Shown in pieces: positions 5,929 through 27,842 of a DNA stretch of 32,209 bases (position 1 is the stretch's first letter; the number at the start of each line of letters is the position of its first letter). The position numbers and the translations under genes were made by a program. Origin of the DNA: an uncultured Ruminococcus sp. (GTDB lineage: Bacteria > Bacillota > Clostridia > Oscillospirales > Ruminococcaceae); NCBI GenBank assembly GCA_947176345.1, contig CAMWQI010000008.1:1-32209 (forward strand). Direction: 5' to 3'. The notes under the pieces are model-generated. The model saw only the letters and a list, made by a program, of their open reading frames with translations, ran no database searches and was not told the origin of the DNA.

Positions 5929-5967
5929 ATATGTATATTATTTTAATGAAACGGAGAATTTAAAACT

Positions 5968-9414: not shown

Positions 9415-9419
9415 TTTTA

Positions 9420-9444: not shown

Positions 9445-9471
9445 ATGAATAATATCAGTGTGGAGTAAATT

Positions 9472-9495
9472 TTCGTATAATTTAAATTATACGAA
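9472..9495. repeat. Perfect 24-bp palindrome with loxP-like core
   Basis: TTCGTATAATTT is followed directly by its exact reverse complement. Read another way, two inverted TTCGTATA arms flank the 8-base spacer ATTTAAAT. Those arms equal the inner eight bases of the loxP arms and the spacer fits NNNTANNN, but the outer five bases of each arm do not match. It could instead be an operator. It lies between a terminator and the promoter at 9673. Confidence 0.75.
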
Positions 9496-9672
9496 TAAAG
9501 TTTATTTATAAATATAATTTAAAAATAACCGGAAAAAATTTTCTTTAAAGTATCTGCAATACATGAGTAGGAAAAACAAAGTATTAATTCGTTTTTTATT
9601 ACAAAATAATAAAATTAGGGAAAATATAATCTTATAAATAATATAAAAATTTTCTTTAATTTGCATGATATA

Positions 9673-9701
9673 TTTACATTTATTGCGAAAAGTGTTATAA
9701 T
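9673..9701 (+). promoter_or_regulatory. Promoter of the ComM-like gene and rodA-like gene
   Basis: TTTACA (9673-9678) and TATAAT (9696-9701) are 17 bases apart, 30 bases before the TTG start codon. The stretch 9496-9672 is extremely AT-rich and shows nothing else I can name. Confidence 0.75.
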
Positions 9702-9731
9702 AATAAAAAAATATAACAGGGGTGAATTTTT

Positions 9732-11252: not shown

Positions 11253-11278
11253 ATAATTTAATAGTAAAGGAGAATAAA

Positions 11279-13731: not shown

Positions 13732-13764
13732 AAAAAAATCCTCCTTAATATTCGTTATGATATT

Positions 13765-13793
13765 ATTATAACACAGATAGTATTTAATGTCAA
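13765..13793 (-). promoter_or_regulatory. Promoter of the adaptor-scaffoldin-like gene
   Basis: On the minus strand TTGACA (13788-13793) and TATAAT (13765-13770) are 17 bases apart, about 35 bases before the chosen ATG. Confidence 0.88.
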
Positions 13794-13856
13794 TCAGCAA
13801 GTAACAAAATCAACAATATTTACAATACACTATGCTGTAATTTATCAGAAATAAAT

Positions 13857-13900: not shown

Positions 13901-15880
13901 TCAGTTTTTGATAATTTCGTTAAGTTCTTCAGTAGTAATTGGGAAATCTTCAGCTTTTACCATATTAAGTCCGATAAGCTGAATAGCAAGCGCGTCCATA
14001 GCGGTCACGCCGTCACCTTGATTTACAACATCGGCATTAGTCCGACCCTGTTCCGTGAGTTTGTATTCATCAGGATTTGACAGTGACTGCATTATAAGTA
14101 CAGCATCAGAAACATTTACATTGCCATCATCGTTTGCGTCGCCTAATACTTTCGGTTTGATAGTATCCGTCTTGCTGGTTGTAGTGGTTGTTTTGGTTTC
14201 GCCTGAACCGGTTGTTTTGGCAGTAGTGGTTGTTGTGCTTGTATTTTTGCCTGTTGTAGCAGTAGTTTTCGGAGGTTCTTCACCGCCGTCAAAAGAATAG
14301 AGATTTTCCGGCAGTTCGTCAAGTGTTATACAGTATTCACTCTGATACATTTTAGTGAGTTCCTCATGGTCTTGATAATTTTCACCAAGGAAAGCCGTTC
14401 CGCCGTCCTCACCGCCGTCATACCATGGGCAGAAATACAGCCAGTTAGCATCTTCAATAAGCATATTTTCAAGTGCTGGTACAGTATCATTTTCAGCCAT
14501 AGCAACCATTTTTGTACCTTTGGTAAGCTTGAAAAGATAATCGAACTTTTCAGATATAGCACGGAGGTTAGGACCACTGCTCTTGCCGTCGCCTCTGTTG
14601 TTTTCAACGTTGTACTTGTCATATGCTACTATATCAACGTATTCGTCACCTGGATACCATGTATGAGAATTTGAGTAGTCATAGCTGTTAAATTCCCATA
14701 TGATATTATGGAGTTCATATTTTTCGGTAAGGGTTGTATATAGGAGTTTCCAGAGTTCCTTGTAGACTTCTGCACCTCTGTCGCCCCACCAGAACCATGA
14801 AGTGCCGTCGCCATAATTGCCCTCATTGCCTTGTGCCTCATGAAGCGGACGGAAAATAATAGGTACATTTTCGTCCTGAAGTTTCTGCAACTGTTCAGCA
14901 AGCATTTTCATTGCTTCTTCAAAATATTCACGTTCCTTAGTGTCTTCCTTTATTACATTTGCGGTATTGAAAGTGCTTCCTGATGCCTGATAATTCTGAT
15001 AAGTACATTTTTTCCAGTCCAGTTCGTCGCCGATTTCATAATTATCAAAATCAATCGGTACATTTATATGCCATGATGCAGTAATAATTCCGTTTTTTTC
15101 CTTAACCCATTCTATAGCACGTTCAGTAGAGCCATCGTCCCAGCCATAGAGCGGATTATAGTTCATGAAATCAAGTCCGCGTATAGCCGGAACTTTTCCG
15201 GTAAGTTTTTCAAGAAATTCATTTTCCCATTCATAGTTGCCACTATGACCACCGCCATAGATTTCCTGCTGACCGGATATTGTATGCTTACCGTAAATGC
15301 TTTTCAGGTATTTCATAAGGGATTTTGTTTCAGGTGTAGCTTCTGCGTCACAGGTTGCACCGGTGGCAAGAGAATAATCTTTCTTTTCGGCAACAGATAT
15401 AGTAACATTATCTACAGCCATATAGCCATATTTATTAAGGAAAGAGATTTCATTTTCACCGGCTTTGAGACGAACTGTGCCGAAATCAAAATCTGTCCAT
15501 TTATCATAATATGGAACATTTTTTGAGTATTCAGCACCATTTACAGAAATAGTCTGCATTCTTGCATTCTGGTCAAGTATCTGTGCGACTTTTGCTGAAA
15601 TGTTGTACATACCGTCTTCCTCAACTGTAACTTTGAAAGACAATGCACCACTTGTGAGATATGCAAAACCCTTACCGCTGTAATCCGGTATCTGATTTTC
15701 ATAGATTGAAGTCCAAAGTTCAGCACCCTCAAGGTCTTCACCCTCTATGGTATAAGGGAATTGTGTAAGTTCTGCTTTTGTTTCCTTTACAGCGTAAGCC
15801 GGAATTACTGAAGACAGCGAAACGGCAGATACTGCGACAGCTGATATGAGCGACAATGCCTTTTTAAGTTTATTTTTCAT
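13901..15880 (-). CDS. Cellulosomal GH26 beta-mannanase with N-terminal CBM35-like module and C-terminal dockerin
   Basis: The 659-residue secreted enzyme should hydrolyse beta-1,4-mannan backbones and attach to a cellulosome. Residues 1-30 are a signal peptide ending in AYA. Residues 38-164 form a CBM35/CBM6-like beta-sandwich (YTIEGEDLEGA ... VNGAEYSKNV ... GENEISFLN ... MAVDNVTI). Residues 182-515 are a GH26 barrel: HTISGQQE, IIFRPLHEAQG with the acid/base Glu348, EYVDIVAYDKYNV, and VAMAENDTVP with the likely nucleophile Glu463. A Thr-rich linker spans 538-572. The dockerin at 579-637 has DANDDGNVNVSD and the 13-residue second loop DVVNQGDGVTAMD. The start follows AAAGGAG. It has its own promoter and terminator, so it is separately controlled from the adaptor gene downstream. 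Confidence 0.92.
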   Translation of the reverse strand: MKNKLKKALSLISAVAVSAVSLSSVIPAYAVKETKAELTQFPYTIEGEDLEGAELWTSIYENQIPDYSGKGFAYLTSGALSFKVTVEEDGMYNISAKVAQILDQNARMQTISVNGAEYSKNVPYYDKWTDFDFGTVRLKAGENEISFLNKYGYMAVDNVTISVAEKKDYSLATGATCDAEATPETKSLMKYLKSIYGKHTISGQQEIYGGGHSGNYEWENEFLEKLTGKVPAIRGLDFMNYNPLYGWDDGSTERAIEWVKEKNGIITASWHINVPIDFDNYEIGDELDWKKCTYQNYQASGSTFNTANVIKEDTKEREYFEEAMKMLAEQLQKLQDENVPIIFRPLHEAQGNEGNYGDGTSWFWWGDRGAEVYKELWKLLYTTLTEKYELHNIIWEFNSYDYSNSHTWYPGDEYVDIVAYDKYNVENNRGDGKSSGPNLRAISEKFDYLFKLTKGTKMVAMAENDTVPALENMLIEDANWLYFCPWYDGGEDGGTAFLGENYQDHEELTKMYQSEYCITLDELPENLYSFDGGEEPPKTTATTGKNTSTTTTTAKTTGSGETKTTTTTSKTDTIKPKVLGDANDDGNVNVSDAVLIMQSLSNPDEYKLTEQGRTNADVVNQGDGVTAMDALAIQLIGLNMVKAEDFPITTEELNEIIKN

Positions 15881-15980: not shown

Positions 15981-16013
15981 AAAAAACGGGTTCTGTATCT
16001 GTTTGCAGAACCC
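15981..16013 (-). terminator. Terminator after the penicillin-binding protein gene
   Basis: GGGTTCTG pairs with CAGAACCC around a 10-base loop. On the minus strand it lies just after the stop codon and is followed by CGTTTTTTT. Confidence 0.85.
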
Positions 16014-16022
16014 ATCTGAATA

Positions 16023-17663
16023 TTATTGATTTGCAAGTATATTTATAATCCCCTGATACAGATAAGCCGATTCACTGGAAAAATTAAATCCATAGTCATT
16101 AGGGTTCTGCATCTGCATGACAACTATATAAGAACCGCCGTCCTCGTGATATGTTGAATAATCGCTATATATCGGACAATTTTCAGAATTATCATATATA
16201 TTTTTCATACAGCCTGTTATGTATAGAATATCATATCCGCCTGTTTCAGCCGTGCCGGTTTTTGCGTAAAATTCATAGTTTTCACCGGCATATATTCCTA
16301 AATCAGAACCCACGCCATACATACCATCAAGAATACCCTGCCGGCAGTTTTCGGGAACAGATGCTATAACCTCATAGGGCTGTGAGCCATGCTGAAGCAC
16401 TGTCTGCGCACCGCTGGAATCAATTATATTCTGCAACATGAATGGTCTTACCATATCGCCGAAAATAGCCTCACGGCAGAGTGTGGCAAGGAACATAGGG
16501 CTAGTGCGGACATATGCTTGACCAAATGCACTCCGTCTTAAATCGTCCATACAGGTAATATCCATACTGCTTGAAATAGTTCCGAAATCGCATTCTATGT
16601 CAAGGTTATCGCCGAAATGGAATATTTCCGCAAGGTCATTGCGAACTGTTTCTTCACCTAACTGGTCAAATACTTTCGCAAAGAATATATTGCTTGAATT
16701 TATAAAAGCTGAGTAAAGACTTCTTTCCATGGGATAGTATGAGTTTTTGTCATGGTCCCAGTCAACTATAATACCTTCGTCCGAATACCATGTACCCTCA
16801 TCATAGAGTGAGTATATTTCGTGTTTATCAGCAATTATTTCAGTCATAATCTTGAAACAAGAACCAGGGGGCTGTTTAGCCATAGATTTATTTTCAATCG
16901 CACCATAGCCTATTGTGTCTATGTAATCGGGATTAGTATAATATTTTACAGGGTCAAATGACGGATAGGAAATGTCCGCCATAACAGAGCCGTCTGTGCG
17001 GAGTACCACAACAGAGCCGACAATATTTACATTTTCCATGTACTGATATATCTGGTTCTGAATTTCCGCATCAATAGTAAGCTGTACAGATTTACCAAGA
17101 TTTTCAGAGGCGTGTTTTGAAACAGGGTTTGAGGCACTGAGAATATAGTCAAATGAAGTTTCTACGCCACCGGAGACTTCGCTTAATATATTGCCTAAAG
17201 CAGTGCCATATTTTGCGGAATACTTTCTGTTTCCGTCGGAGTCACTTTTAACAAGAACTATTCCATTTGTGTCATATATATTTCCTCTTTCAGACTGTTT
17301 TACGTTAATGACTGGAATTGTAGTAGTTGTTGAAGTAATTTCCATACCACTTACGGTGTAAGCAGTATTTGTTGTTGTGGCAATAGTAGATTTAATAGTT
17401 GTAGTAGTAGTTAAAACATTATTGTCTTCCTGTTCAGGATTTTTTCCCTGTTCTCGTCGGTTTTCAGCCTTTATTATTCCGGAATCAGCCGTTTCCATAA
17501 AGTTACCCTCTTGAGCGTTCATTACAACGGGTGGTGGCAGAGTGGTGACGGGTTCAGTTTCCACGGGAGTTTCCACTTTAGTATCTGAACCACAAGATAT
17601 TGCTAATGTCATCATTATTCCGGCAAGCAGAAGTAAGATAAAATCTTTTTTTCTGAATTTCAT
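16023..17663 (-). CDS. Class B penicillin-binding protein (transpeptidase), lipoprotein-like
   Basis: The 546-residue protein cross-links peptidoglycan outside the membrane. All active-site motifs are present: SxxK as S268-CF-K271, SxN as S323-S-N325, and KTG at 468-470, with the supporting FGQAYVRTSPM (380-390). Upstream is the short RGNIYDTNG element (126-134) typical of class B enzymes of the FtsI/PbpA/SpoVD type. The N terminus is odd: MKFRKKDFILLLLAGIMMTLAISC suggests lipid attachment at Cys24 (the -3 residue is Ala, not Leu), followed by about 95 residues of Thr/Glu-rich linker in place of most of the dimerisation domain. A plain membrane anchor is the alternative. A SEDS polymerase is encoded at 11279-12433. 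Confidence 0.88.
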   Translation of the reverse strand: MKFRKKDFILLLLAGIMMTLAISCGSDTKVETPVETEPVTTLPPPVVMNAQEGNFMETADSGIIKAENRREQGKNPEQEDNNVLTTTTTIKSTIATTTNTAYTVSGMEITSTTTTIPVINVKQSERGNIYDTNGIVLVKSDSDGNRKYSAKYGTALGNILSEVSGGVETSFDYILSASNPVSKHASENLGKSVQLTIDAEIQNQIYQYMENVNIVGSVVVLRTDGSVMADISYPSFDPVKYYTNPDYIDTIGYGAIENKSMAKQPPGSCFKIMTEIIADKHEIYSLYDEGTWYSDEGIIVDWDHDKNSYYPMERSLYSAFINSSNIFFAKVFDQLGEETVRNDLAEIFHFGDNLDIECDFGTISSSMDITCMDDLRRSAFGQAYVRTSPMFLATLCREAIFGDMVRPFMLQNIIDSSGAQTVLQHGSQPYEVIASVPENCRQGILDGMYGVGSDLGIYAGENYEFYAKTGTAETGGYDILYITGCMKNIYDNSENCPIYSDYSTYHEDGGSYIVVMQMQNPNDYGFNFSSESAYLYQGIINILANQ

Positions 17664-17709
17664 AATTAAAATATCGCCTCTTTGTGTGTCTTATAATGTT
17701 TACAAGTTT

Positions 17710-17738
17710 ATTATACTCTCTTTTCCGGATTTAGTCAA
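17710..17738 (-). promoter_or_regulatory. Promoter of the penicillin-binding protein gene
   Basis: On the minus strand TTGACT (17733-17738) and TATAAT (17710-17715) are 17 bases apart. No terminator separates it from the upstream 17755-25393 gene group, so read-through is possible. Confidence 0.8.
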
Positions 17739-17754
17739 CAGGATTTTTCAAATT

Positions 17755-19464
17755 TCAGTGTATAACACATTTTTCGCATGGTTCAAGACCAGCTGACAGT
17801 GCTTCTTCAAATGATACTTCATAATATGTACCGTTTCCGCAAGGATTTTCATAATGATATTTTTTACCTGATTTTGTTCTGTAAACATAATCAGGTGTTG
17901 TGACAACAGGAGCAGTAGTAGTTGTTGTCGTATAGTCTTCAATGCTGATATAATCCATACTTGCATAGCCGTAATAAGTTTTTCCGTTGTTTTCATAGCT
18001 GATATAAGCCCATCCGTCGTTGTGTCCGTATATATTTACTATAGTTGAATTTGGTATAGTAGTTATTATACCGGAGTTTGTTGTGGGCTTTGCACGGAGA
18101 TTAAGATTTGTACTGACGGTTATGACCTTTCCTTTTTCAGCAGAATAATTTTTATTGAATATAAAATCATAATCGGAGTCTGTTATATCAAAATATGTAT
18201 ATGGTTCATAGTTCATAATTCTGTTGATACCTGACATATTCGTCCAGTTATAAGCCGGAATGGCTATTCTGCGTTCTGTATCAGTGCTGATATTTTCGGA
18301 AGATACTTTTTCACCGTTGAATGAGATTTTTTCAACATACTCAATCTGATTTTGTCCAGCTACTTTATAGAGTGTTTCGCCGTCTGAGGCAAGATAGCTG
18401 TATTCTGCATCAATATCTCCGGCAAAAATCATCACACCGCCTTTCATGCTGTATACGGAATACTTGTTGTCTTCTTCAGTTTCGCCCATTTCCATAATCA
18501 GTTCATATGTGCCATCATTGTTTATGTCATGTACATAATATTCATGGTGGAGCATTGAGTCAGTAATTTTTCTAGCCATAAGCTGTACAGCCTCTACATA
18601 TGACGAATATTCAGGAGTTTCGGGGGCTGTAACGGCAGTAGTAGTTGTTGTCGTCGTTATAGCCGAAGTAGTGGTTGTAGTAGTAGTTTGTGTTGAAGTT
18701 GATATAGTAGTATTTTGATTTTCCGGCGGGATTTCCCATGTGGGATTTCCGTTTGTTGAAAGTTCTGCATAATAAATACTTATCATTGATGCATCAACTG
18801 CATCAATAAAGCCGTCCTTGTTTACGTTGGCGGAACGTTTCTGGCGTTCATTAAAAGTGCCTGTACCTTCTGTAGATAGCAAGGAATATTCAATACTAAC
18901 TATTGATGCGTCTACGGCATTAATAAAGCCGTCACCGTTTACGTCGCCCATTTCAGAATTTCCGTAATGTATGACTATATTTTTTTCTGTTTCGTTTTCA
19001 GAAGATACAGTCCATTCACTGCCGGAATAATCATTGTCAACGGAAAAATTATAATCACATTTCAGAAAGCTGTCGGGGTTGTCGTTTACGTCGGGAACAT
19101 TGAAAGTATCTGTATAAACAACAATATCGTCATATTCCGTGCTTGTAAGTGCCACGCGGAGCGTGTAATTTCTGTAGTCGTTTTCTGTAGTGTCTCTTCC
19201 CTCAATGTCCATTGAAACGGATTTTTTACCGTCCGCATTTATTATATAGTATGGTGTATCTGTTACTTCCGGAGAAGTGAAAGTAATCATTATTTCGGCT
19301 GTAGTATTTTCAGGAATATTTACATTGATATTTCCGTTTACGTCATTTACATTGAAATCGCTGTATACCATGCCTGTGCTTTCAGCGTATGTATAAGCAG
19401 GCACGGCAATAACCGCCGATATTGCAACAGCTGAAAAAACTGATAATATTTTTTTTATTTTCAT
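17755..19464 (-). CDS. Secreted protein with internal dockerin, SH3b domain and Cys/His C-terminal motif
   Basis: The 569-residue protein has a signal peptide (about 1-27), an N-terminal beta domain (30-168), a dockerin at 172-236, a Thr linker (251-280), a domain with DINNDGTYELIMEMG (about 285-440), an SH3b domain (449-506; LNLRAKPTTNSGIITTIPN ... GWAYISY), a second short Thr linker, and a C-terminal motif YVYRTKSGKKYHYENPC ... PCEKC (His537, Cys542, Cys563, Cys566), a probable metal-binding element. The dockerin loops are DVNGDGFINAVD and NVNKDGFIDAVD. It is internally symmetric, internal in the protein and unlike the dockerins of the two genes downstream, so it should bind a different cohesin. 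The gene begins 15 bases after the AlgJ-like gene. Probable role: surface attachment linked to wall glycan. Confidence 0.82.
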   Translation of the reverse strand: MKIKKILSVFSAVAISAVIAVPAYTYAESTGMVYSDFNVNDVNGNINVNIPENTTAEIMITFTSPEVTDTPYYIINADGKKSVSMDIEGRDTTENDYRNYTLRVALTSTEYDDIVVYTDTFNVPDVNDNPDSFLKCDYNFSVDNDYSGSEWTVSSENETEKNIVIHYGNSEMGDVNGDGFINAVDASIVSIEYSLLSTEGTGTFNERQKRSANVNKDGFIDAVDASMISIYYAELSTNGNPTWEIPPENQNTTISTSTQTTTTTTTSAITTTTTTTAVTAPETPEYSSYVEAVQLMARKITDSMLHHEYYVHDINNDGTYELIMEMGETEEDNKYSVYSMKGGVMIFAGDIDAEYSYLASDGETLYKVAGQNQIEYVEKISFNGEKVSSENISTDTERRIAIPAYNWTNMSGINRIMNYEPYTYFDITDSDYDFIFNKNYSAEKGKVITVSTNLNLRAKPTTNSGIITTIPNSTIVNIYGHNDGWAYISYENNGKTYYGYASMDYISIEDYTTTTTTAPVVTTPDYVYRTKSGKKYHYENPCGNGTYYEVSFEEALSAGLEPCEKCVIH

Positions 19465-19479
19465 AAAAATAATCCTTTC

Positions 19480-20874
19480 TTATTGTGAAGACACCGCTGT
19501 GCCATCATCATTTATGGATATAACTGTTATATCTTCCGGAATTACTCCCGAATCTGCCGGAATATATAATGAAAAGCCGTTATCGCTTGTTTCACCGTCA
19601 CGGTCAAGGAGCTTGTCTTCAAATGCATTGAATGCCCTGTAGGTCACACCGTTTGCTGTGATAAAGATTTTTGCATTGTCGGACGTGAAAAAATTGTTGT
19701 CAAGTTCTCCGAAAATATGTATATAGTTTCCGGAAGTCTGTTGATTTATAGTAATATCAGGGCATACAGTCAACTTTTTGAACTCAAGACTGTTTACAAC
19801 CGGAGCAGGCATTAACGGAGCATATTTCTGCAAATCGGACATATTTCTTTCTACTATCTCAATAATGAGCGTATCGGCATTTTCACCGCCTATTCTGTCA
19901 AGACGATAGGGGACTATACGGGAAAATTCGGCATTTCCGAAACATTCAGCCATAAACGGCAGTATAGCCTCACCGTATGAGTCACGGAACATGAGAAGAT
20001 TTCCGGTTTTTCCCTCACATACAGTATTTATCGTCATATCGTCAAGGGCTTTGAAGCGACCAGTGTATTTATATGTATATTGATAATCGCTGTAAACCTG
20101 TGTATCGTCAGCTTTTCCTGCTGGATAAATCATTTCCGTCAAATCTCCCATACGGTCATTGCGGACGGTCCAGTTTCCAGAGGGACAGACTTCTTTTTCA
20201 AGCATATTCATAAGTGCCATATGTCCGGTATAAGCACCTAAATTATTCCAGTGAGTATCTTTTTTGTGATAAAGCGGTATGCTTGCATCAGCACTTAAAA
20301 TGACTTCTTTCATGTTGCAGTATGGGAAATTTTCGTCAAGAATTTCTGAAAGTCTCTCATAGTTTCCGGTATCGTCAGCCGGAACGTATCGGGAGGGCAT
20401 ATGCTCCGGATAGACGGAATTTTTATTAGGTGCAATTGTAAATATGAATTTCACATTATTTTCATTGCAGTAATTATTTATAATTTCAAGATTATTTTTT
20501 ATGTTGTTTATTCCCCTGTCTGTGAGGGTGTTTATATTCAGAAAATCATTTACAGCTTCACCATAATATAACCAGCCGTCCTTGCCTGTGATTACATCGT
20601 CATTCGGAGAAGTGCCAAATAATTTAGATTTTACATAGCCGTCAAGTGTAACAAACTGCTGTCGGAACGCAAAGTGTTCTGAAAAATATGTTTCAAATTC
20701 ATTAAAGTATTCAAAATTTATTTTTCCTTCTTTGGTTTTTATTTCCGGAGCAGTGGAAAGTTTACGTTTTTCAGTGGAAGTATCGCTTTTCACAAACGGC
20801 ATGAATACCGACGGCACAAGACATATTCCGACGAATACGCACGAATATATTTTATATAAAATATTTTTATTCAT
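19480..20874 (-). CDS. AlgJ/AlgX-like SGNH-fold protein (DHHW family), partner of MBOAT acyltransferase
   Basis: The 464-residue protein has one N-terminal membrane segment (7-27), which anchors an extracytoplasmic domain. The family motifs are GKDGWLYYGE (97-106), KFIFTIAPNKNSVYPE, DTHWN at 206-210 (catalytic Asp/His pair) and LMFRDSYGEAI, with the probable nucleophile Ser299. AlgJ, AlgX and DltD-like proteins take an acyl group passed through an MBOAT membrane protein and transfer it to a polysaccharide or teichoic acid. The C terminus beyond 345 is an extra beta domain. Its start (after CGGAGGT) lies 14 bases after the MBOAT stop codon, the standard pairing. The acceptor polymer is unknown; no glycan-synthesis genes are nearby. 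Confidence 0.88.
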   Translation of the reverse strand: MNKNILYKIYSCVFVGICLVPSVFMPFVKSDTSTEKRKLSTAPEIKTKEGKINFEYFNEFETYFSEHFAFRQQFVTLDGYVKSKLFGTSPNDDVITGKDGWLYYGEAVNDFLNINTLTDRGINNIKNNLEIINNYCNENNVKFIFTIAPNKNSVYPEHMPSRYVPADDTGNYERLSEILDENFPYCNMKEVILSADASIPLYHKKDTHWNNLGAYTGHMALMNMLEKEVCPSGNWTVRNDRMGDLTEMIYPAGKADDTQVYSDYQYTYKYTGRFKALDDMTINTVCEGKTGNLLMFRDSYGEAILPFMAECFGNAEFSRIVPYRLDRIGGENADTLIIEIVERNMSDLQKYAPLMPAPVVNSLEFKKLTVCPDITINQQTSGNYIHIFGELDNNFFTSDNAKIFITANGVTYRAFNAFEDKLLDRDGETSDNGFSLYIPADSGVIPEDITVISINDDGTAVSSQ

Positions 20875-20888
20875 TAAAGTACCTCCGG

Positions 20889-22295
20889 TCAGAACCTGAA
20901 ATATATAAACGGATTATACGATGCCGACGAAAGTGTAAGTATGCATAGTATAAGCATTAAAATCGATACAACGTATGAACATATCTCACCGGCAGATATT
21001 ATTTTTTCGGAATTTATTTTGTTCCGGACTATCTGCCATACCGGTACACTGAATATACACGCAAGAAAAGCCATTATTATGTACATGGGTGTAAACTGCA
21101 TCATGAAAAGTGAATTATTTTCCGGTGAACTTCCCGAAAAACTGAACATTTTTCCGATATATACACAAGCTGTGGATATATCATCTGCACGGAAAAATAC
21201 AAATGCTAAAAGCGTTACAAGTAATGTATATATATGTCGTAAAGGCTTTAACCATTTTTCAGTGTTTACTATTTTATAGGACTCCAGCATCATGAATGCA
21301 CCATTGATAAGCCCCCATACTATGAAATTTAGGCTTGCACCGTGCCATAGTCCCGTGCAGAAAAAAACGAATAATTTATTGAATGCTGTACGGACTTTTC
21401 CTTTTCTGTTTCCGCCGAGGGGGATATATAAATATTCCTTGAACCACGTTGATACGGATATATGCCATCTTCTCCAGAACTCCTGCATACTTTCTGATAT
21501 GTAGGGATAGTTGAAATTCTCAAGGAAATCAAATCCGAACATTTTTCCGAGACCTATTGCCATATCGCTGTAACCGCTGAAATCAAAGAAAATCTGCATC
21601 ATGTACGAAAAAGCTCCCAGCCATGCAAGCGGTGCAGAGAGATTTTCCGTATCAAGTCCGTATATGAAATCAGCAGTAATCGCCATAGTGTTGGCTATAA
21701 GCAGTTTCTTTGAAAGTCCCGTGATAAAACGTTTTATGCCCTGTGCGGTTTTTTCAGGAGTGGTTTTTCTATGGTCTATCTGGTCTGCAAAGTCGTAATA
21801 TTTCACGATAGGACCAGCCACAAGCTGTGGGAAAAACGTTATATACAAAGCAAGTTTATAGGGATTTTTCTGAATGTATTCGGGATTTTTATAGGCATCT
21901 ATGACATACGACATAGCCTGAAATGTATAGAAACTTATTCCTATTGGCAAGGCTATATTTGGAATACTCATACTAAGGAACGGCAGACGGTCAAGCATTT
22001 CCGCACCGAAACCGGCATATTTGAAAATTCCCAATATAAGAAGATTTGCGGTTATGCTTACCACAAGAAAAACTTTTCTGTATCTGTTTGTTTCTTTCAT
22101 GGCAAGTCCGAAAACATAGTTTATAATTATTGAAATAATCATTAAAATTACAGCTTTCGGCTCACCATAAGTGTAGAATGCAAGACTGAAAATCAGCAAA
22201 AGTATGTTTTTTGCCGTAATAGTCGGTATAATTCTGTAGAGAATATATACCGACGTTAAAAATATAAACAGAAATACAGGACTGCTGAATACCAA
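20889..22295 (-). CDS. MBOAT-family O-acyltransferase (AlgI/DltB/PatA-like)
   Basis: The 468-residue polytopic membrane protein moves an acyl group, usually acetyl, across the membrane for O-acylation of an extracellular polymer. Signature segments are YTYGEPKAV, LPIGISFYTFQAMSYVID (117-133), FFPQLVAGPIVKY (154-166), FFDFSGYSDMAIGLGKMFGF, ESMQEFWRRWHISVSTWFKEYLYIPLGGNRKG with His278, and FFCTGLWHGASLNFIVWG with the catalytic His318. The start codon is TTG at 22295, eight bases after AGGAGG; no ATG fits. It follows the Thr-rich lipoprotein gene by 15 bases and precedes the AlgJ-like gene by 14, so all three are co-transcribed. Confidence 0.93.
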   Translation of the reverse strand: MVFSSPVFLFIFLTSVYILYRIIPTITAKNILLLIFSLAFYTYGEPKAVILMIISIIINYVFGLAMKETNRYRKVFLVVSITANLLILGIFKYAGFGAEMLDRLPFLSMSIPNIALPIGISFYTFQAMSYVIDAYKNPEYIQKNPYKLALYITFFPQLVAGPIVKYYDFADQIDHRKTTPEKTAQGIKRFITGLSKKLLIANTMAITADFIYGLDTENLSAPLAWLGAFSYMMQIFFDFSGYSDMAIGLGKMFGFDFLENFNYPYISESMQEFWRRWHISVSTWFKEYLYIPLGGNRKGKVRTAFNKLFVFFCTGLWHGASLNFIVWGLINGAFMMLESYKIVNTEKWLKPLRHIYTLLVTLLAFVFFRADDISTACVYIGKMFSFSGSSPENNSLFMMQFTPMYIIMAFLACIFSVPVWQIVRNKINSEKIISAGEICSYVVSILMLILCILTLSSASYNPFIYFRF

Positions 22296-22310
22296 GTACA
22301 GTTCCTCCTT

Positions 22311-23177
22311 TTATACGGGAGCATAGAAGAATATTGAAGTTACAGTGTCACCGTCGTATTCTATATCCATTTCATTGTTTCCGGTGTAATATACAGTCAT
22401 GTTACCGCTTGTTTCGCCTGTTCCGTATGCTGACTCAACTTCAGCACGGGTACAGCCTGTTTTTATATCATGGTCAGTGACATATTTATCATTTGTTATT
22501 TCGATGCTGAAAATATATTCAGTTGACCCGTCAATGTAGCACTGCACTTCCAGTCCATCATACTGGTAAATTTTAACATCATTGCCGTTGCTTGTACAGC
22601 CAGGTGCTTCACCGGAATAGTCAGGTGTTCCTAACATTGCAAGAAGTCCTGATGCGTCATTCAGCAGATTATCGACAGTGAATTTAAAATCCAGTGTATT
22701 GTTTTCTGTCCGAATTTCTGTAGCCGGTTCAGGAGTATCAGGTGCAAGAGTAATTGCCGGTGGTGTATCATTATTGTTGTTTTCTTCCGGAGCAGATGTG
22801 TTGTTTTCTGTCGGAGTCTCATCTGGAGCGGTTGTTTCAGGCGTTGCAGTAGTTTCAGCCTGTGCGGACGTTGTAGTAGTTGTTACTGCTGTATCTTCGC
22901 CTGATGTTTCAGTGGTGGTATTTTCTGCTGAAGTTGTTGAAACTGTTTCGGTAGTAGTGACAGTATCGCTTTGTGTAACCGATGTGGTAGAAGTAGTAGT
23001 GACTACTTCGGTAGTAGTTTTTTCAGCGGATTTTTCTGTTGTTTCAACTGTAGCGGTTGTATTTGTTGCTTCTCCGTAAGCTATACTTACAGAACTTTCA
23101 CTGTCGTCTTTTCCGCATGAGACAGCCGATAATGCAAGTATTGCCGCGGTTGCTGCCAATAAAGCCTTTGAATTCAT
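22311..23177 (-). CDS. Thr-rich lipoprotein with two BamE-like C-terminal repeats
   Basis: The 288-residue protein starts MNSKALLAATAAILALSAVSC, with the lipid-modified cysteine at 21. Residues 40-155 are Thr/Glu/Pro-rich and probably span the wall. The C-terminal part has two related segments, LLAMLGTPDYSGEAPGC (about 180-230) and IKTGCTRAEVESAYGTG (about 240-288), resembling the SmpA/OmlA/BamE-like fold. The first 38 residues and the upstream DNA are nearly identical to the next lipoprotein gene (23234), so the two share a duplicated export module with unrelated cargo. The gene ends 15 bases before the MBOAT start. The start follows CGGAGGAA. Function unknown. Confidence 0.78.
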   Translation of the reverse strand: MNSKALLAATAAILALSAVSCGKDDSESSVSIAYGEATNTTATVETTEKSAEKTTTEVVTTTSTTSVTQSDTVTTTETVSTTSAENTTTETSGEDTAVTTTTTSAQAETTATPETTAPDETPTENNTSAPEENNNNDTPPAITLAPDTPEPATEIRTENNTLDFKFTVDNLLNDASGLLAMLGTPDYSGEAPGCTSNGNDVKIYQYDGLEVQCYIDGSTEYIFSIEITNDKYVTDHDIKTGCTRAEVESAYGTGETSGNMTVYYTGNNEMDIEYDGDTVTSIFFYAPV

Positions 23178-23233
23178 AATATATTTCCTCCGTTTTGTTT
23201 TTTCAGATAAACATATAATTGTTTATGTATAAT

Positions 23234-23851
23234 TTAATTGCCGTCAACGCCCGTGCTTACATAAAGTATAATTGTTTCGCCCTTGTTTACTTCTGTTTTA
23301 GCCTCCGGCTCTGTGCTTATTACATAATCCGGCGTGATTTCAATGTTTGCGGTTTCCCTGATTTCACATTCAAGACCAATTAGTGCAAGCTGGTCTTTTG
23401 CAAGGTCGGAGTGCATATTTGTAACGTCTGGCATTTCAACAGTTTCCATATCAGAAATTTCCTCGATAGTTTCTTCTTCCGCACCCGTGCTTACATAAAG
23501 TACAATTGTTTCCCCCTTGTTTACTTCTGTTTTAGCCTCCGGCTCTGTGCTTATTACGTAGCCAGGCGGGATTTCAATGTTTTCGGAGTTCCTGATTTCG
23601 CATTCAAGACCAATTAGTGCAAGCTGGTCTTTTGCAAGGTCGGAGTGCATATTTGTAACGTCTGGCATTTCAACAGTTTCCACATCAGAAACTTCTTCGG
23701 TAGTTTTTTCTTCTTTTTCTTCCGTTATGGTTGTTCTTGTTGACTCTCCGTATGCTATGCTTGCAGAATTTTCACTGTCGTCTTTTCCGCACGAAACAGC
23801 CGACAATGCAAGTATCAAAGCGGTTGTAGCCATTAAAGCTTTTGAGTTCAT
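23234..23851 (-). CDS. Lipoprotein with two tandem PASTA domains
   Basis: The 205-residue protein starts MNSKALMATTALILALSAVSC, with the lipid-modified cysteine at 21. After a charged spacer come two PASTA domains at 60-123 and 138-201, each with VEMPDVTNMHSDLAKDQL, GLECEIR, YVISTEPEA and VNKGETI-LYVSTG. The two copies are nearly identical (78-residue, 234-bp period), indicating a recent internal duplication. PASTA domains bind peptidoglycan fragments and are usually part of Ser/Thr kinases or penicillin-binding proteins; here they stand alone on a lipid anchor. The gene begins 33 bases after the stop of the transglutaminase-like gene. The start follows CGGAGGAA. I infer a wall-contacting accessory protein. 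Confidence 0.85.
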   Translation of the reverse strand: MNSKALMATTALILALSAVSCGKDDSENSASIAYGESTRTTITEEKEEKTTEEVSDVETVEMPDVTNMHSDLAKDQLALIGLECEIRNSENIEIPPGYVISTEPEAKTEVNKGETIVLYVSTGAEEETIEEISDMETVEMPDVTNMHSDLAKDQLALIGLECEIRETANIEITPDYVISTEPEAKTEVNKGETIILYVSTGVDGN

Positions 23852-23884
23852 AATATTTTTCCTCCGTTATGATATTTGTATAAA

Positions 23885-25393
23885 TTAATTATATGTCGGA
23901 TAAACATAATTATAAAAAGTATAATTCTGTGACTGAAGATAACTGAAATCAACCATATAATAGCCGTTGCAGGTATCGATACAGTACCATGTGCCGTTTG
24001 CGTATATTTCATTCCAGTAGTGTTCGCCTGTGCCTCTGCCTGTGCCGTGAACTATTCTTGATTCCCATCCGGCTTGTTTCAGCAGAACATCAGTTATAGC
24101 AGCGAAATAATAACATACTATAAAGCGGTTATTGAATGCATAGTTAGCGAAATATGACCAGCCAATAGCCTCAATCTGTGCTTGTGACTTTGTTTCTTCC
24201 ATGAACTGATATCTGTTGTTGCTCCGCACGAAATTAAATATAGCCTCCGTGCTTGTACCTATCTGTGCAATGATGCTGTTTGCCTTTTGCTGAACTGCCG
24301 AAAGTGGCTGTACTTTTCCGTCTTCACCGATAGTTTTTCCGTCAATGGTAGTGTTTGTTACCATTATTCCATTATTATTGAAAAAATATTCATCATCATC
24401 AATAGTTTGCCAGCCGAAAGCCATTTTACCGTCCGGCAGGAAATAACACTGATTATTATTAACAGTCTGCCAGCCATTAAGCATAATGCCGTTATCATCA
24501 AAGAAATATGTTCCATCGTCCTTTATTGTGATAAGACCGGTTGCACGCGTGCAGTCGTCATTGAAATAGTAGGGGAGACCGTCTATATCCTGCCAGCCTG
24601 TTAGACATACACCGTCTTCATCGCTGTAGTAAACGTCACCGTCTTTTGACGTTGCCCAATCGGAAACACGCATAGCACCATCTGTTTCCGAAAAGAAATA
24701 TTTCTTTCCGTCTATTTCGGTTATGCCCCGTGACATAACGCCGTCTTCCTTGAAATAACGTGTATAGTCGCTTATATCATGCCAACCTGTGAGAGCTTTT
24801 CCGTCGTCACCTAAATAGAATACTTCATCATTATCACTCTCAACGAAACCACCAGTAAGCATATAGCCTGAATTTCCGTCAAAGCAGTATGTATCATCAT
24901 CAATAATAGTCTTGCCGATAGCAAGTTTTCCGTCTTCATTTATGTAGTAGGTTTTTCCGTCGGACTCTTTAAAGCCCTGCTCCTTGATTTCCTCACCTTT
25001 ATCGGACATAAGATGTGCTGTGCCGTCTGTTTCCTTGAAAAATCCGGTTGTTTTTCCGTTTTCTTCGTCAAGATAGTAGACATTTTCACAGTAATCAAGC
25101 CAGCCTGATAAAGCCTTTCCGGTTTCGTGGTCAAAGTATTTTCTTTGTCCTCCGACTGTACGCCAGCCGGTTTTAAGTACACCGTTAGCAGAAAAGAGGT
25201 ATTTTTCACCATCTATTTCCTGTTCGCCGGTAAGGTATTTACCGGCATCATCATAGTAGAAAATACGTCCTTTTTCGTCGGTATACCATTCTGATTTTTT
25301 TGTATCGTCTGCAAATGCCGATACAGGCATAACCGCTAATGCACTAATCATAGCAGTTAAGGCACATAATTTTAATTTTTTTGTTGTCTTCAT
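23885..25393 (-). CDS. Cell-wall/glucan-binding repeat protein with transglutaminase-like domain
   Basis: The 502-residue secreted protein has a signal peptide (1-28, ending in AFA). Residues 35-350 hold about fifteen choline-/glucan-binding-type repeats of about 20 residues (for example GWQTVNNNQCYFLPDGKMAF), which bind wall or glucan. The C-terminal 130 residues are transglutaminase-like: Cys427 in FIVCYYFAAITDVLLKQAGW, His458 in GEHYWNEIY and Asp473 in WYCIDTCNG form the expected triad. Such domains act as proteases, amidases or cross-linking enzymes; which applies here is not visible. The start follows AAAGGAT. A small cysteine-rich frame overlaps its ATG by four bases. It heads the minus-strand gene group ending at 17755. 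Confidence 0.88.
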   Translation of the reverse strand: MKTTKKLKLCALTAMISALAVMPVSAFADDTKKSEWYTDEKGRIFYYDDAGKYLTGEQEIDGEKYLFSANGVLKTGWRTVGGQRKYFDHETGKALSGWLDYCENVYYLDEENGKTTGFFKETDGTAHLMSDKGEEIKEQGFKESDGKTYYINEDGKLAIGKTIIDDDTYCFDGNSGYMLTGGFVESDNDEVFYLGDDGKALTGWHDISDYTRYFKEDGVMSRGITEIDGKKYFFSETDGAMRVSDWATSKDGDVYYSDEDGVCLTGWQDIDGLPYYFNDDCTRATGLITIKDDGTYFFDDNGIMLNGWQTVNNNQCYFLPDGKMAFGWQTIDDDEYFFNNNGIMVTNTTIDGKTIGEDGKVQPLSAVQQKANSIIAQIGTSTEAIFNFVRSNNRYQFMEETKSQAQIEAIGWSYFANYAFNNRFIVCYYFAAITDVLLKQAGWESRIVHGTGRGTGEHYWNEIYANGTWYCIDTCNGYYMVDFSYLQSQNYTFYNYVYPTYN

Positions 25394-25584
25394 TGAGTTA
25401 ATCCTTTCTTTTTGATTTTTTTTACATTAATACATTCGCATTGTCCGTCAATAAAAGGACAATTTTTTTTAATGCATAATTTATGGAAGGGAGGGGGAGG
25501 TTTTTTATTTTCATTTCCAATATCATTTCCAATATCATTCCCATTATCAATACCATTATCACCTGTAAATGCATACATTTGCAT
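25390..25584 (-). CDS. Possible small Cys-rich ORF upstream of the transglutaminase-like gene
   Basis: A 64-codon frame ends in a TGA that overlaps the downstream ATG by four bases (ATGA), as in coupled genes. The N-terminal part encodes GNDI tetrapeptides from a 12-bp DNA repeat. The C-terminal part reads KLCIKKNCPFIDGQCECIN, a C-x4-C-x6-C-x-C pattern, then a lysine-rich tail. Against it are the lack of a ribosome binding site at the ATG, repeat-derived low complexity and a terminator-like hairpin inside the frame. I have not recognised any family. Confidence 0.3.
   Translation of the reverse strand: MQMYAFTGDNGIDNGNDIGNDIGNENKKPPPPFHKLCIKKNCPFIDGQCECINVKKIKKKGLTQ
25440..25470 (+). terminator. 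Terminator-like hairpin with no plus-strand gene upstream
   Basis: ATTGTCC (25440-25446) pairs with GGACAAT (25457-25463) around a 10-base loop and is followed by T8 on the plus strand. All genes nearby are on the minus strand. On that strand it would be a leader hairpin preceded by an A run, about 50 bases before the transglutaminase-like start codon. Confidence 0.5.
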
Positions 25585-25609
25585 ACATTTGCATGCAATT
25601 GCATTTCAA
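25512..25609. repeat. Two adjacent short tandem arrays (4 x 12 bp and 4 x 10 bp)
   Basis: On the plus strand CATTTCCAATAT occurs twice, followed by CATTCCCATTAT and CAATACCATTAT (25512-25559). After ten bases come TGCATACATT twice, TGCATGCAAT and TGCATTTCAA (25570-25609). Both arrays lie between the lipid-kinase stop codon and the transglutaminase-like gene. Confidence 0.85.
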
Positions 25610-25619
25610 TTCATAATTA

Positions 25620-26561
25620 TTAATTATCAATTATTATTTCCTCACGCATGAATTTTGTTTCGTCACAGTCGCATATCATGAACGAAACGGCTTTCTGGCA
25701 GTTTGAGATAACGCACTGCATAGCGTCACCGCCGAACTCCCCGTCCCTTGTCCATGTAGCCGGTTCTTCGTCAAGACAGGTGAATGTTATCTTGTCAGTA
25801 CGGAAGAATTTAATATAGTCCTTGTCTATTTCCTCTGATATGTTAAGAAGAGAACGGACTATCTGATTTAACTGCACAAGATTTGAAGGCTTTTTAATCA
25901 GAACAACTTCAAAAACACCATCGTCAAGCATGAAGTCATTTATCGAAAGCATACCGGCAACAGATGCGGTATTTGTTACCATGCCGAAAAGGAAATCGTC
26001 TTCAATGACATTATCTTCATATTCAATACGCATACGCTTTGAACGGATAGTTTTCAACTGCATAAGACCATTTAGAATATAAGCAGCATGACCAAATGTA
26101 TTTTTTATACGCTGTGGTGTTTCGTATGTTATATTTGTGAATGCTCCGAATGCCACTATATACATGAAATAATCATCATTGAATTTTCCTACATCACAGT
26201 TTTTAGGCTTGCCGTCAATAATCCAGTGGACAGCGTTCATGATGTTACGGGGAATGTCAAGGCTTTGAGCAAAGTCATTTGTTGAGCCAGCCGGAATGTA
26301 CCCGATTGTAAGACGGTTTTCGCTTTTCATTATGCCCTGTAGGCACTGACATAAAGTGCCGTCACCACCGGCACATACTATTATGTCAAAATTATTCTCA
26401 CACGCATAGTATGCGGCTTCAGATGCATCATTACTGCTTTGTGTCGGGTGGACGGTTACTTCACCGCCTATTTTAGTGAACTCATTTATAATACTGCCAA
26501 GATTTTCGCTTATCATGGCTTTTCCGGCAACCAGATTAACAATCATATATATCTTTATCAT
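25620..26561 (-). CDS. Diacylglycerol-kinase-family (DagK/YegS) lipid kinase
   Basis: The 313-residue protein is a soluble lipid kinase of the DAGK catalytic fold, phosphorylating diacylglycerol or a related lipid at the membrane surface. Motifs are VNLVAGKA (8-15, the nucleotide-binding N/G motif), CAGGDGTLCQC with the GGDGT signature at 65-69, YIPAGSTNDFAQSL (PxGTxNDxA-type, 88-101) and the C-terminal DDGVFEVVLIKKP and WTRDGEFGGDA (usual DGE). Length is normal. The start follows AGGAGG. It has its own promoter, divergent from that of tRNA-Gln. Recycling of diacylglycerol is a plausible role; substrate is not determined. Confidence 0.9.
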   Translation of the reverse strand: MIKIYMIVNLVAGKAMISENLGSIINEFTKIGGEVTVHPTQSSNDASEAAYYACENNFDIIVCAGGDGTLCQCLQGIMKSENRLTIGYIPAGSTNDFAQSLDIPRNIMNAVHWIIDGKPKNCDVGKFNDDYFMYIVAFGAFTNITYETPQRIKNTFGHAAYILNGLMQLKTIRSKRMRIEYEDNVIEDDFLFGMVTNTASVAGMLSINDFMLDDGVFEVVLIKKPSNLVQLNQIVRSLLNISEEIDKDYIKFFRTDKITFTCLDEEPATWTRDGEFGGDAMQCVISNCQKAVSFMICDCDETKFMREEIIIDN

Positions 26562-26584
26562 AACAAAAATCCTCCTGTATGAAT

Positions 26585-26613
26585 ATTATATAATGATTTT
26601 TGCTTTTTTGCAA
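26585..26613 (-). promoter_or_regulatory. Promoter of the lipid kinase gene
   Basis: On the minus strand a weak -35 TTGCAA (26608-26613) lies 17 bases from TATAAT (26585-26590), about 24 bases before the start codon. Confidence 0.6.
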
Positions 26614-26655
26614 TAGTGCGGATTTAATTAAAATAAAAAAATATATAAAAACCTC

Positions 26656-26684
26656 TTGACTTTTTATTCCAGACGTGCTATAAT
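26656..26684 (+). promoter_or_regulatory. Promoter of tRNA-Gln
   Basis: TTGACT (26656-26661) and TATAAT (26679-26684) are 17 bases apart, 33 bases before the tRNA. Confidence 0.85.
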
Positions 26685-26717
26685 ATAAAAGCTGAATGAA
26701 ACAGCCATAAAAGACAC

Positions 26718-26793
26718 TGGGGTGTCGCCAAGCGGTAAGGCAACGGACTCTGACTCCGTCACTTCCGGGGTTCGAATCCCTGCACCCCAACCA
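26718..26793 (+). tRNA. tRNA-Gln (anticodon CTG)
   Basis: The 76-base sequence folds as a standard class I tRNA: acceptor TGGGGTG with CACCCCA, D arm GCCAAGCGGTAAGGC, anticodon arm ACGGA-CTCTGAC-TCCGT giving anticodon CTG, T arm GGGGTTCGAATCCC (the T loop with TTCGAAT), discriminator A and encoded CCA. The unusual T at position 1 is typical of bacterial tRNA-Gln. Promoter and terminator flank it tightly, so it is a single-gene unit. Confidence 0.95.
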
Positions 26794-26801
26794 GTAATAT
26801 T

Positions 26802-26835
26802 AAAATGCACTCATTTGTATGAGTGCATTTTTTTT
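26802..26835 (+). terminator. Terminator of tRNA-Gln
   Basis: AAAATGCACTCAT pairs with ATGAGTGCATTTT over 13 bp around TTGT, followed by more T. The dispersed repeat starts directly at its end. Confidence 0.9.
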
Positions 26836-26872
26836 GCGTTTTGCGTGTGATTTTTTTGTATTTCGCGTGTGA
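26830..26872 (-). repeat. Dispersed A-tract repeat, two units (second copy)
   Basis: On the minus strand TCACACGCGAAATAC plus an A run (26872-26851) and ACACGCAAAACGCAAAAAA (26848-26830) match the two units at 12451-12492 at about 21 of 22 and 18 of 19 positions, in the opposite order. Confidence 0.75.
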
Positions 26873-26880
26873 TATTACGA

Positions 26881-26921
26881 CAAGCCCTAAGAAATGTTTG
26901 TAAAGCAAATCTAAGGGCTTG
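26881..26921. repeat. Inverted repeat, probable RNA hairpin without T run
   Basis: CAAGCCCT (26881-26888) pairs with AGGGCTTG (26914-26921). After one mismatch a further AGA/TCT-type pairing and a TTTG/CAAA pairing are possible. No T run follows on either strand, so it is not a plain terminator. The rest of 26922-26951 shows nothing. Confidence 0.55.
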
Positions 26922-26951
26922 CCGGTTAGAATGATAGACTATTAGTGAGTG

Positions 26952-27404
26952 TTAAGTTATTTTATTATAATAAATCCATTTTGTAAGTGTTACAATACCG
27001 ATAAACAAAGAAACAGCAAGCAGTGTGAAGAAAACAGTTGAGCTTAAATATCCGGCAATAATTGTAGCCACGATAATCGGCATAATCAACGACTTATATA
27101 GTCTATATCCGGTAAGTTCAGAAATTTTTAAATTACGCTCATCTGTATTTTTTATGTAATCAGCTTTGAGTTGTTTTTCGTCTTTTAGTATTGCTCCTGT
27201 ACGTACTGTAGAAATAATCAGGCACATTGCAAGTCCAATAAAAATACCAATATGAAATCCTCTGAAAAAGTCGCCGAAATTCCCATGTGGATAGAATTTT
27301 GACAAATAACCTTGCTGACCGACAGTAAAAACAGCAGACAAACAGCAAAGCATAATAGCCTGTGATTTCAGTTTGTTTTGTAGTGTTTTCTTATAATTTT
27401 CCAT
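26952..27404 (-). CDS. Small four-helix membrane protein paired with an XRE regulator
   Basis: From the ATG at 27404 (after GGAGGTTTAAT) the protein has 150 residues; a longer frame to 27515 would overlap the regulator gene. Hydrophobic segments lie at about 15-32, 49-68, 104-121 and 123-143. Between the second and third is KADYIKNTDERNLKISELTG, a DERxxKI motif seen in DUF2178-type proteins that commonly accompany small HTH regulators. It lies 13 bases after the regulator gene. I infer a two-gene regulator/membrane-protein unit; the physiological signal is unknown. Confidence 0.7.
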   Translation of the reverse strand: MENYKKTLQNKLKSQAIMLCCLSAVFTVGQQGYLSKFYPHGNFGDFFRGFHIGIFIGLAMCLIISTVRTGAILKDEKQLKADYIKNTDERNLKISELTGYRLYKSLIMPIIVATIIAGYLSSTVFFTLLAVSLFIGIVTLTKWIYYNKIT

Positions 27405-27417
27405 ATTAAACCTCCGA

Positions 27418-27618
27418 TTAGTCGATATCCGAAAAGTCAAAAACTTCCTCGATAGTAAGATTAAAATAATGTGCGATTTTGTAGGCAAGAACAAGAGATG
27501 CGGTATATTTTTCACACTCTAATGAAGTTATAGTCTGCCTTGTGACATTCACAGCTTCTGCAAGTTCGTCCTGCGAAAGCTTGTTCTTCTTTCGCAACTC
27601 TTTGATTTTCGTTTTCAT
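27418..27618 (-). CDS. XRE-family HTH transcriptional regulator (short form)
   Basis: The 66-residue protein is a single Cro/CI-type helix-turn-helix domain: IKELRKKNKLSQDELAEAVNVTRQTITSLECEKYTASLVLAYKIAHYFNLTIEEVF. It matches the small YozG/YgzD-like group, which has no ligand domain. The start follows GAGGTGATTT. It is first in an operon with a small membrane protein. Its promoter region carries three TTTGCA boxes spaced exactly 23 bp apart around the -10 and -35 boxes, a likely autoregulatory operator. Confidence 0.92.
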   Translation of the reverse strand: MKTKIKELRKKNKLSQDELAEAVNVTRQTITSLECEKYTASLVLAYKIAHYFNLTIEEVFDFSDID

Positions 27619-27650
27619 AAATCACCTCATGTTGAATATGCTAAGTTAAC

Positions 27651-27702
27651 TTTGCAATTATAGTATAGCATGCTTTGCAAAAAATGTCAAGTGTATTTTG
27701 CA
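27651..27702 (-). promoter_or_regulatory. Promoter and probable operator of the XRE operon
   Basis: On the minus strand TTGACA (27685-27690) and TATACT (27662-27667) are 17 bases apart. On the plus strand TTTGCAA at 27651, TTTGCAA at 27674 and TTTGCAT at 27697 are spaced 23 bp, flanking both promoter boxes. Confidence 0.75.
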
Positions 27703-27726
27703 TTTTTTTGAAAAAATTTTTTTTCA

Positions 27727-27766
27727 TAAAAAAAGAAGCAGATTTCATGTGACGAAACCTGCTTTT
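27727..27766 (-). terminator. Terminator after the glycerophosphodiesterase gene
   Basis: On the minus strand AAGCAG/CTGCTT plus GAAA/TTTC form a stem with one mismatch around a 7-base loop, followed by CTTTTTTT. It lies about 80 bases after the stop codon; the bases between (27767-27842) show nothing else. Confidence 0.7.
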
Positions 27767-27842
27767 AAAAAAGAAGTCGGAGAAGTAATGACAATCACTT
27801 TTCTTGTTTTTTATTATACTCTCCATGTTCTGAAAATATTCA

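Follow-up and report, generated by a model that had tools for sequence, protein, structure and literature searches.

The closest described systems to the locus analyzed here are those in which a membrane-bound O-acyltransferase (MBOAT) stands beside an SGNH transferase. PatA1/PatB1 of Bacillus cereus, which O-acetylate the secondary wall polysaccharide, and the Gram-negative PatA/PatB proteins combine an MBOAT carrying an acyl-Tyr hexapeptide with such a neighbor, and the AlgIJX proteins for alginate and the CcsHI/WssHI proteins for cellulose O-acetylation pair an MBOAT with an AlgJ/AlgX-like protein. Peptidoglycan O-acetylation is described as the work of two proteins, PatA and PatB; PatA uses its FXYXXF tail as an acyl-Tyr shuttle that hands acetyl to PatB, and the same shuttle has been proposed for the alginate, cellulose, and secondary wall polysaccharide systems (PMC12148441, in excerpt). 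The Dlt system (DltXABCD) follows the same MBOAT-SGNH logic, and an acyl esterase gene may form part of a dlt operon, as shown by DltE of Lactobacillus plantarum, an accessory serine D-Ala esterase and not a Cys-His-Asp enzyme (PMC10241514, in excerpt). Here, we describe a six-gene group in a 32,209-nucleotide stretch of DNA from an uncultured Ruminococcus sp. (the window, which is contig C8 of a 2.78-Mb assembly that is 90% complete). Sequence comparison leads us to regard it as fairly probable that the group forms a conserved operon for envelope O-acylation, of the MBOAT-SGNH (PatAB/AlgIJ) kind, with an accessory transglutaminase (TG)-like protein, a lipoprotein, and a docked protein. The MBOAT-SGNH pair is of an already known kind, and the new part would be the fixed extra partners. 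The features, in transcription order, are as follows.

23885-25393, minus strand: TG-like wall-repeat protein gene, first; product secreted
23234-23851, minus strand: PASTA lipoprotein gene, second; two PASTA domains; accessory
22311-23177, minus strand: Thr-rich lipoprotein gene, third; two-lobed C-terminal domain at 22314-22739, resembling in fold the N-terminal domain of extracellular SCP/CAP proteins, YfeY, and YjgB
20889-22295, minus strand: MBOAT O-acyltransferase gene, fourth; His318
20892-20909, minus strand: FIYFRF, C-terminal hexapeptide of the MBOAT, matching the acyl-Tyr shuttle motif FXYXXF
19480-20874, minus strand: AlgX/AlgJ-like SGNH transferase gene, fifth; Asp206, His208, Ser299
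17755-19464, minus strand: dockerin protein gene, sixth and last

The order of five of these genes is strictly conserved. With the MBOAT as query, 79 related loci were retrieved, of which the 67 with an MBOAT identity of at least 70% were used for the counts (two of them, L064 and L068, belong to one assembly). The order TG-like protein, lipoprotein, MBOAT, AlgX-like protein, and dockerin protein was found in 67/67 of these loci of the Ruminococcus flavefaciens group, with median gaps of 22.5, 14, 11, and 12 bases, and the outcome that the initial annotation had named as refuting its gene group, absence of the order from close relatives, did not occur. All five genes were present in 62/67 loci, including that of R. 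flavefaciens FD-1 (L045), and in the other five (L025, L043, L047, L057, and L059), the absent gene falls at a contig end. The order is held far beyond chance, since it is found in every locus although the flanks change: an upstream lipid-kinase gene was found in 14 of 54 testable loci and a downstream penicillin-binding protein gene in 14 of 61. Most of the loci are titled Ruminococcus, several of them R. flavefaciens, and a few others are titled Alistipes (L005 and L051) or Anaerotruncus (L053). Among the 12 loci excluded for an MBOAT identity below 70%, six (L066, L069-L072, and L074) have the MBOAT beside an AlgX-like gene and one (L077) has a weak AlgX-like match. A protein of 955 amino acids encoded 3' of the cassette in several relatives was considered as a further member and set aside as a neighbor, as the one copy scanned (in L048) is an M16C peptidase.

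In the window itself, ORF coordinates and a terminator scan bore out the compact arrangement first noted for the six minus-strand genes, with gaps of 14-56 bases and no terminator in between. The gaps are 15, 14, 15, 56, and 33 bases, in ascending coordinates from the dockerin gene to the TG-like gene; no minus-strand terminator-like site lies within any gap, and those inside the group are all intragenic. Pfam domains above the cut-offs were dockerin and SH3, AlgX and DHHW, MBOAT, two PASTA domains, and choline-binding repeats with a TG core, while the Thr-rich lipoprotein gave no Pfam domain above the cut-off. The six genes are predicted to be read as one transcript. A promoter-like site scoring 10/12 lies immediately 5' of the PASTA gene (23916-23888, minus strand), weak sites scoring 9/12 lie before the Thr-rich lipoprotein gene (23247-23218 and 23206-23178) and the AlgX-like gene (20927-20900), and two further minus-strand sites are intragenic (19703 and 19076). 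Such matches are frequent by chance (51 found versus 38.9 in shuffles).

The PASTA gene, which the initial annotation had counted as a core part, does not belong to the core, being present in just 2/67 related loci. Its start is 81% identical to that of the Thr-rich lipoprotein gene over 173 bases (-26 to +147), from which we infer that it arose by copying of the lipoprotein leader.

The acylation chemistry suggested by the MBOAT and the AlgX-like protein is supported by residues as well as by gene order. The MBOAT matches PF03062 with 116.7 bits, above the cut-off; its catalytic His318 is invariant in 68/68 cassette sequences, the window copy included, and all 68 end in the FXYXXF tail. The AlgX-like protein matches PF16822 with 62.9 bits, also above the cut-off, and Asp206, His208, and Ser299 as well as the DxHW motif are invariant in 67/67 sequences, window counted; its closest solved structure is B. 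cereus PatB1 (5v8d, E = 5.2e-10). The locus has what marks an MBOAT-SGNH pair, namely, an MBOAT with its His and a C-terminal FXYXXF, next to an SGNH/AlgX protein with its Ser and DxHW, and the surface O-acylation unit first predicted from these two proteins is supported in that the conserved unit looks like such a system. In the mechanism that we propose, the MBOAT would transfer an acyl group (probably acetyl, with acetyl-CoA as its source) through the membrane to Tyr465 of the FIYFRF tail, the tail would pass this group to Ser299 in the AlgX-like partner, and the latter would acylate a wall-associated polymer synthesized by genes elsewhere in the genome. An acyl-CoA, probably acetyl-CoA, is the likely donor because the genome gave no match for DltD and none above the cut-off for DltA (DltC was not searched for, and in an assembly that is 90% complete the absence of DltA and DltD is no proof). 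The wall-repeat TG-like protein and the two-lobed lipoprotein would act outside the cell, at the acylated polymer, as regular accessories in many Clostridia. In this genus only, the dockerin protein would be added, and a surface cohesin could hold its beta domain.

The view of the two accessories as regular partners derives from their distribution. With its own genome included, the lipoprotein domain was matched by profile (E ≤0.001) in 78/120 genomes of the genus, 52/295 of the order, and 85/391 of the class. In a sample of 30 genomes of the order, from 22 genera, 29/30 have a Pfam TG match and 27/30 a Pfam MBOAT match no more than 8 kb from the lipoprotein, against expected numbers of 1.07 and 0.77, which were derived from 135 TG and 98 MBOAT match rows in 60.7 Mb on the assumption of random placement (a few MBOAT genes yield two rows, and the 8-kb counts were read by eye off the listed coordinates). 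The misses were G291 (TG and MBOAT), G117 (MBOAT), and G094 (MBOAT, with a contig end there). The sample consists of the 29 best-scoring other genomes of the order search and G107, without which the counts are 28/29 and 26/29. Six intermediate-scoring genomes lie outside it: G247, G214, and G055 have neither partner, and G259, G161, and G231 have MBOAT and AlgX-like genes without TG. The locus profiles were retrained on the same loci, which biases their scores upward, and the Pfam scans of the 30 genomes serve as the independent check. In its own genome, the Thr-rich lipoprotein is single copy, and of the three MBOATs, that of the window alone has the lipoprotein and a TG core beside it, the other two having neither.

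We further fetched 70 lipoprotein loci outside the window, 50 from the order (of 55 rows) and 20 from the class, the latter being the 19 best outside its own genome and G719 (G565 and G775 were passed over). An MBOAT was found in 52 and a TG in 48, and an acylation system of one of three types could be assigned to 57. Type A, with an AlgX-like protein, comprises 17 loci (MBOAT in 16/17, TG in 9/17). The nine type B loci are dlt operons encoding DltA and an MBOAT the size of DltB (377-379 amino acids), and all nine have TG; in one of them (L125), DltB scored 452 bits against a cut-off of 375, and DltA scored above the cut-off in one model (488.6 versus 476) and below it in another (473.1 versus 559.85). 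The 31 type C loci are marked by an adenylation enzyme resembling DltA, by an SGNH protein of a second type, or by both, and usually also encode a carrier and an MBOAT of approximately 525 amino acids (MBOAT in 27/31, DltA-like in 27/31, TG in 28/31). The complete MBOATs of types A and C terminate in F-x-Y-x-x-F, a tail that is lacking in the DltB proteins of type B, as would be expected if a DltX serves them. TG sequences of the order loci retain the Cys and His in 32/32 and the Asp in 31/32, the last sequence being cut. A lipoprotein tree built on few columns hints that the R. flavefaciens type is placed among the dlt-like ones.

Several of these loci have features of their own. In two type C operons checked, an Asp/Glu racemase lies between the TG and the ligase. 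The Dlt-like operons L195 (150-7624) and L202 encode a TG-like protein, an Asp/Glu racemase, an adenylation enzyme, a carrier of 74-76 amino acids (its domain checked in L195), an MBOAT with the tail FIYNQF, an SGNH protein, and the lipoprotein, and may be aminoacylation systems that use an acidic D-amino acid; a similarly sized gene occupies the racemase position in L209, L214, and others. An asparagine synthase is found in four loci (L122, L133, L135, and L144). In L141 (approximately 4467-11517), the lipoprotein and TG-like genes lie near AlgX-like, D-Ala-D-Ala dipeptidase-like, and RCC1-repeat genes, and the contig gave no match for an MBOAT.

A number of observations count against an O-acylation operon with regular accessories. 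TG is absent from 8 of the 17 AlgX-type loci, and no acylation system could be assigned to 13 of the 70 lipoprotein-like loci; 10 of these score below 50 bits, L143 (67 bits) and L197 (88 bits) are strong lipoprotein matches without a system, and L173 (69 bits) runs into a contig end. In five of the 12 loci excluded for low MBOAT identity (L078-L082), BLAST gave no AlgX-like match next to the MBOAT, and the TG core of FD-1 scores 21.0 bits, below the Pfam cut-off of 23. In contrast to the alginate and cellulose acetylation loci, no linked gene for polymer synthesis or export was seen here when 21 of the 34 ORFs of the window were scanned with Pfam (the 13 others are of at most 215 amino acids each). 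Finally, the weak promoter-like sites before single genes might be real promoters.

A rival explanation is a plain PatAB-type O-acetylation of a secondary wall polysaccharide, with the TG-like protein, the lipoprotein, and the dockerin protein as unrelated genes that share an operon. This explanation is in line with an SGNH protein nearest to PatB1, with the description of peptidoglycan O-acetylation as needing two proteins, PatA and PatB (PMC12148441, in excerpt), and with the AlgX-type lipoprotein loci that lack TG. Unlike PatA/PatB, however, the cassette has fixed extras, and the lipoprotein and TG-like protein recur beside three types of MBOAT system, in several families and in different gene orders, which is more than chance or common ancestry of the gene order would explain by itself. 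We find it an unlikely explanation, and prefer an O-acylation operon in which these proteins are functional accessories.

What the TG-like protein might do there is suggested by its domains. The product of the first gene has choline/glucan-binding-type wall repeats followed by a C-terminal TG-like core (23975-24250), which in the window copy scores 31.7 bits against PF01841 (cut-off, 23) and holds the Cys-His-Asp triad of the TG-like superfamily; this triad, Cys427-His458-Asp473, is invariant in 65/65 aligned orthologues, window included. Its genome has three TG cores. Members of the PF01841 superfamily include peptidases as well as further enzymes of acyl transfer. The acyl-CoA and aminoacyl types of system have the O-acyl ester on a wall polymer in common, and an enzyme with a Cys-His-Asp triad that moves this ester or takes it off would fit both, while a cross-linker using a free amine would fit the aminoacyl types only. 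The TG-like enzyme may be of the former sort.

A bolder version can be formulated, to which, taken as a whole, we give little credence at present. In this version, the TG-like wall protein and the two-lobed lipoprotein would be general, so far undescribed parts of MBOAT-driven envelope acylation in Clostridia, Dlt included. The TG-like enzyme would take the (amino)acyl group from a membrane-side polymer as a thioester and move it to a wall polymer or remove it, and the lipoprotein would present the polymer, so that acylation is relayed or remodeled at the wall. The R. flavefaciens group would have swapped Dlt-type loading for an acyl-CoA MBOAT and gained a cohesin-docked protein.

The dockerin protein is, like the TG-like protein, a real member of the unit, as the initial annotation had assumed, both being core in the 67-locus cassette. 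It has a signal peptide, a Thr-rich linker, and a Cys-containing tail besides the following parts.

18967-19359, minus strand: N-terminal beta domain
18781-18948, minus strand: dockerin
approximately 17944-18108, minus strand: SH3

The portion conserved across orthologues is the N-terminal beta domain with the dockerin, and the Thr-rich linker, SH3, and tails are variable. SH3b, which had been proposed as a core domain, is not one, as the SH3 stretch of the window aligns to columns in which most of the 63 rows have gaps. The dockerin profile was matched in 64/65 orthologues, and the 65th (L044) is cut at a contig end; the window copy scores above the cut-off of PF00404, and the FD-1 copy scores 22.8 bits against a cut-off of 22.9. 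Searches of the genome gave 85 rows for dockerin and 15 for cohesin; with its two calcium repeats and with cohesins encoded in the genome, the dockerin protein belongs with the cellulosomal proteins. The N-terminal domain consists of beta strands without a clear match in the PDB and was found in 2 of the 295 order genomes, both belonging to this genus, with one copy each.

Among solved structures, the cassette dockerin profile is nearest to the ScaH dockerin (8ajy, 6.7e-24; next best, 2e-9) and thereby resembles the group-4 dockerin proteins of R. flavefaciens (ScaH, ScaB, CttA, and TG-like-Doc). ScaH, a group-4 dockerin, binds wall-anchored ScaE via a Gly-Arg pair; this pair, at positions 11/12 and in the second repeat, is used by ScaH and peptidase-Doc and is common to ScaB and CttA (PMC5301203, in excerpt). 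Unlike these, none of the aligned cassette dockerins has the Gly-Arg pair (0/33); Ala-Lys, Ala-Val, Gly-Ser, and similar pairs stand in its place, and the residue pair is identical in both repeats in 11/33. From its sequence, the cassette dockerin plausibly docks at the cell surface, but ScaE as its partner is unproven given that the recognition pair is absent. The authors of the FD-1 study considered that some group-4 dockerins may serve cell surface structure and not the cellulosome (PMC2930009, in excerpt). The excerpted FD-1 dockerin survey has many dockerin proteins without an assigned function, and that of the cassette may be among them.

The initial annotation had also suggested that the unit ties surface or cellulosome parts to the wall, and the group could indeed have this as its chief task, the TG-like protein cross-linking and the dockerin docking to scaffoldins. 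The wall-binding repeats with an intact Cys-His-Asp core, the ScaH-like dockerin, the 15 cohesin rows, one of them in the window at 13225-13611, and the occurrence in FD-1 of group-4 dockerins on TG-like proteins, together with ScaE binding by group-4 dockerins (PMC2930009 and PMC5301203, both in excerpt), would agree with that. The 0/33 count for the Gly-Arg pair stands against it, as does the beta domain of the dockerin protein, which, unlike the lipoprotein, gave matches in genomes of the genus only. The TG-like protein and the lipoprotein accompany dlt and dlt-like systems in other families, and their main role thus seems tied to acylation rather than to cellulosomes. A tie between cellulosome and wall remains a guess, and as the main function of the group, we judge it improbable.

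Least probable is a Dlt-like aminoacylation system with adenylation and carrier proteins encoded elsewhere in the genome, which would share its lipoprotein and TG partners with dlt and dlt-like operons, but the cassette MBOAT has its own shuttle tail and scores 146 bits against the DltB profile (cut-off, 375), DltD gave no match, and the best DltA profile match, in a frame of 838 amino acids, scored 113.9 bits (cut-off, 559.85); the assembly is 90% complete, so that these absences are no proof, and DltC was not searched for.

The remainder of the window holds further surface and cellulosomal genes.

16023-17663, minus strand: lipoprotein-like penicillin-binding transpeptidase immediately after the group; a promoter-like site scoring 11/12 lies ahead of it at 17738, 3' of the group
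13901-15880, minus strand: GH26 glycosidase with CBM35 and a dockerin (22.3 bits, slightly below the cut-off), also in close relatives
12529-13800, minus strand: secreted small scaffoldin with cohesin and dockerin, lying 4 kb 3' of the group; its cohesin, at 13225-13611, scored 37.3 bits in the genome search and was missed by hmmscan of the whole protein
101-2159, plus strand: two adjacent BspA-type leucine-rich repeat proteins

No match was found in a plasmid collection, which leaves a plasmid origin unsupported, and at gathering thresholds, the only RNA element in 16000-28000 was one tRNA.

In conclusion, we favor an envelope O-acylation operon of the MBOAT-SGNH kind whose additional proteins are regular partners, and in the open-licence papers covered, we did not find the fixed company of a TG-like wall protein and a lipoprotein with an MBOAT-SGNH pair in print. 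The placement, movement, and removal of acyl groups on Gram-positive wall polymers are only partly understood, and we know of no agreed enzyme for the step that moves the acyl group from the lipid-anchored polymer to the wall polymer. The association across many related gut bacteria points to missing parts of a known acylation pathway, and the TG-like family, in which the acyl-transfer triad is intact, and the lipoprotein family are immediate candidates for tests in cultured Clostridia. In rumen cellulose degraders, envelope modification is in this way linked with a dockerin protein, a type of protein otherwise studied for fiber breakdown.

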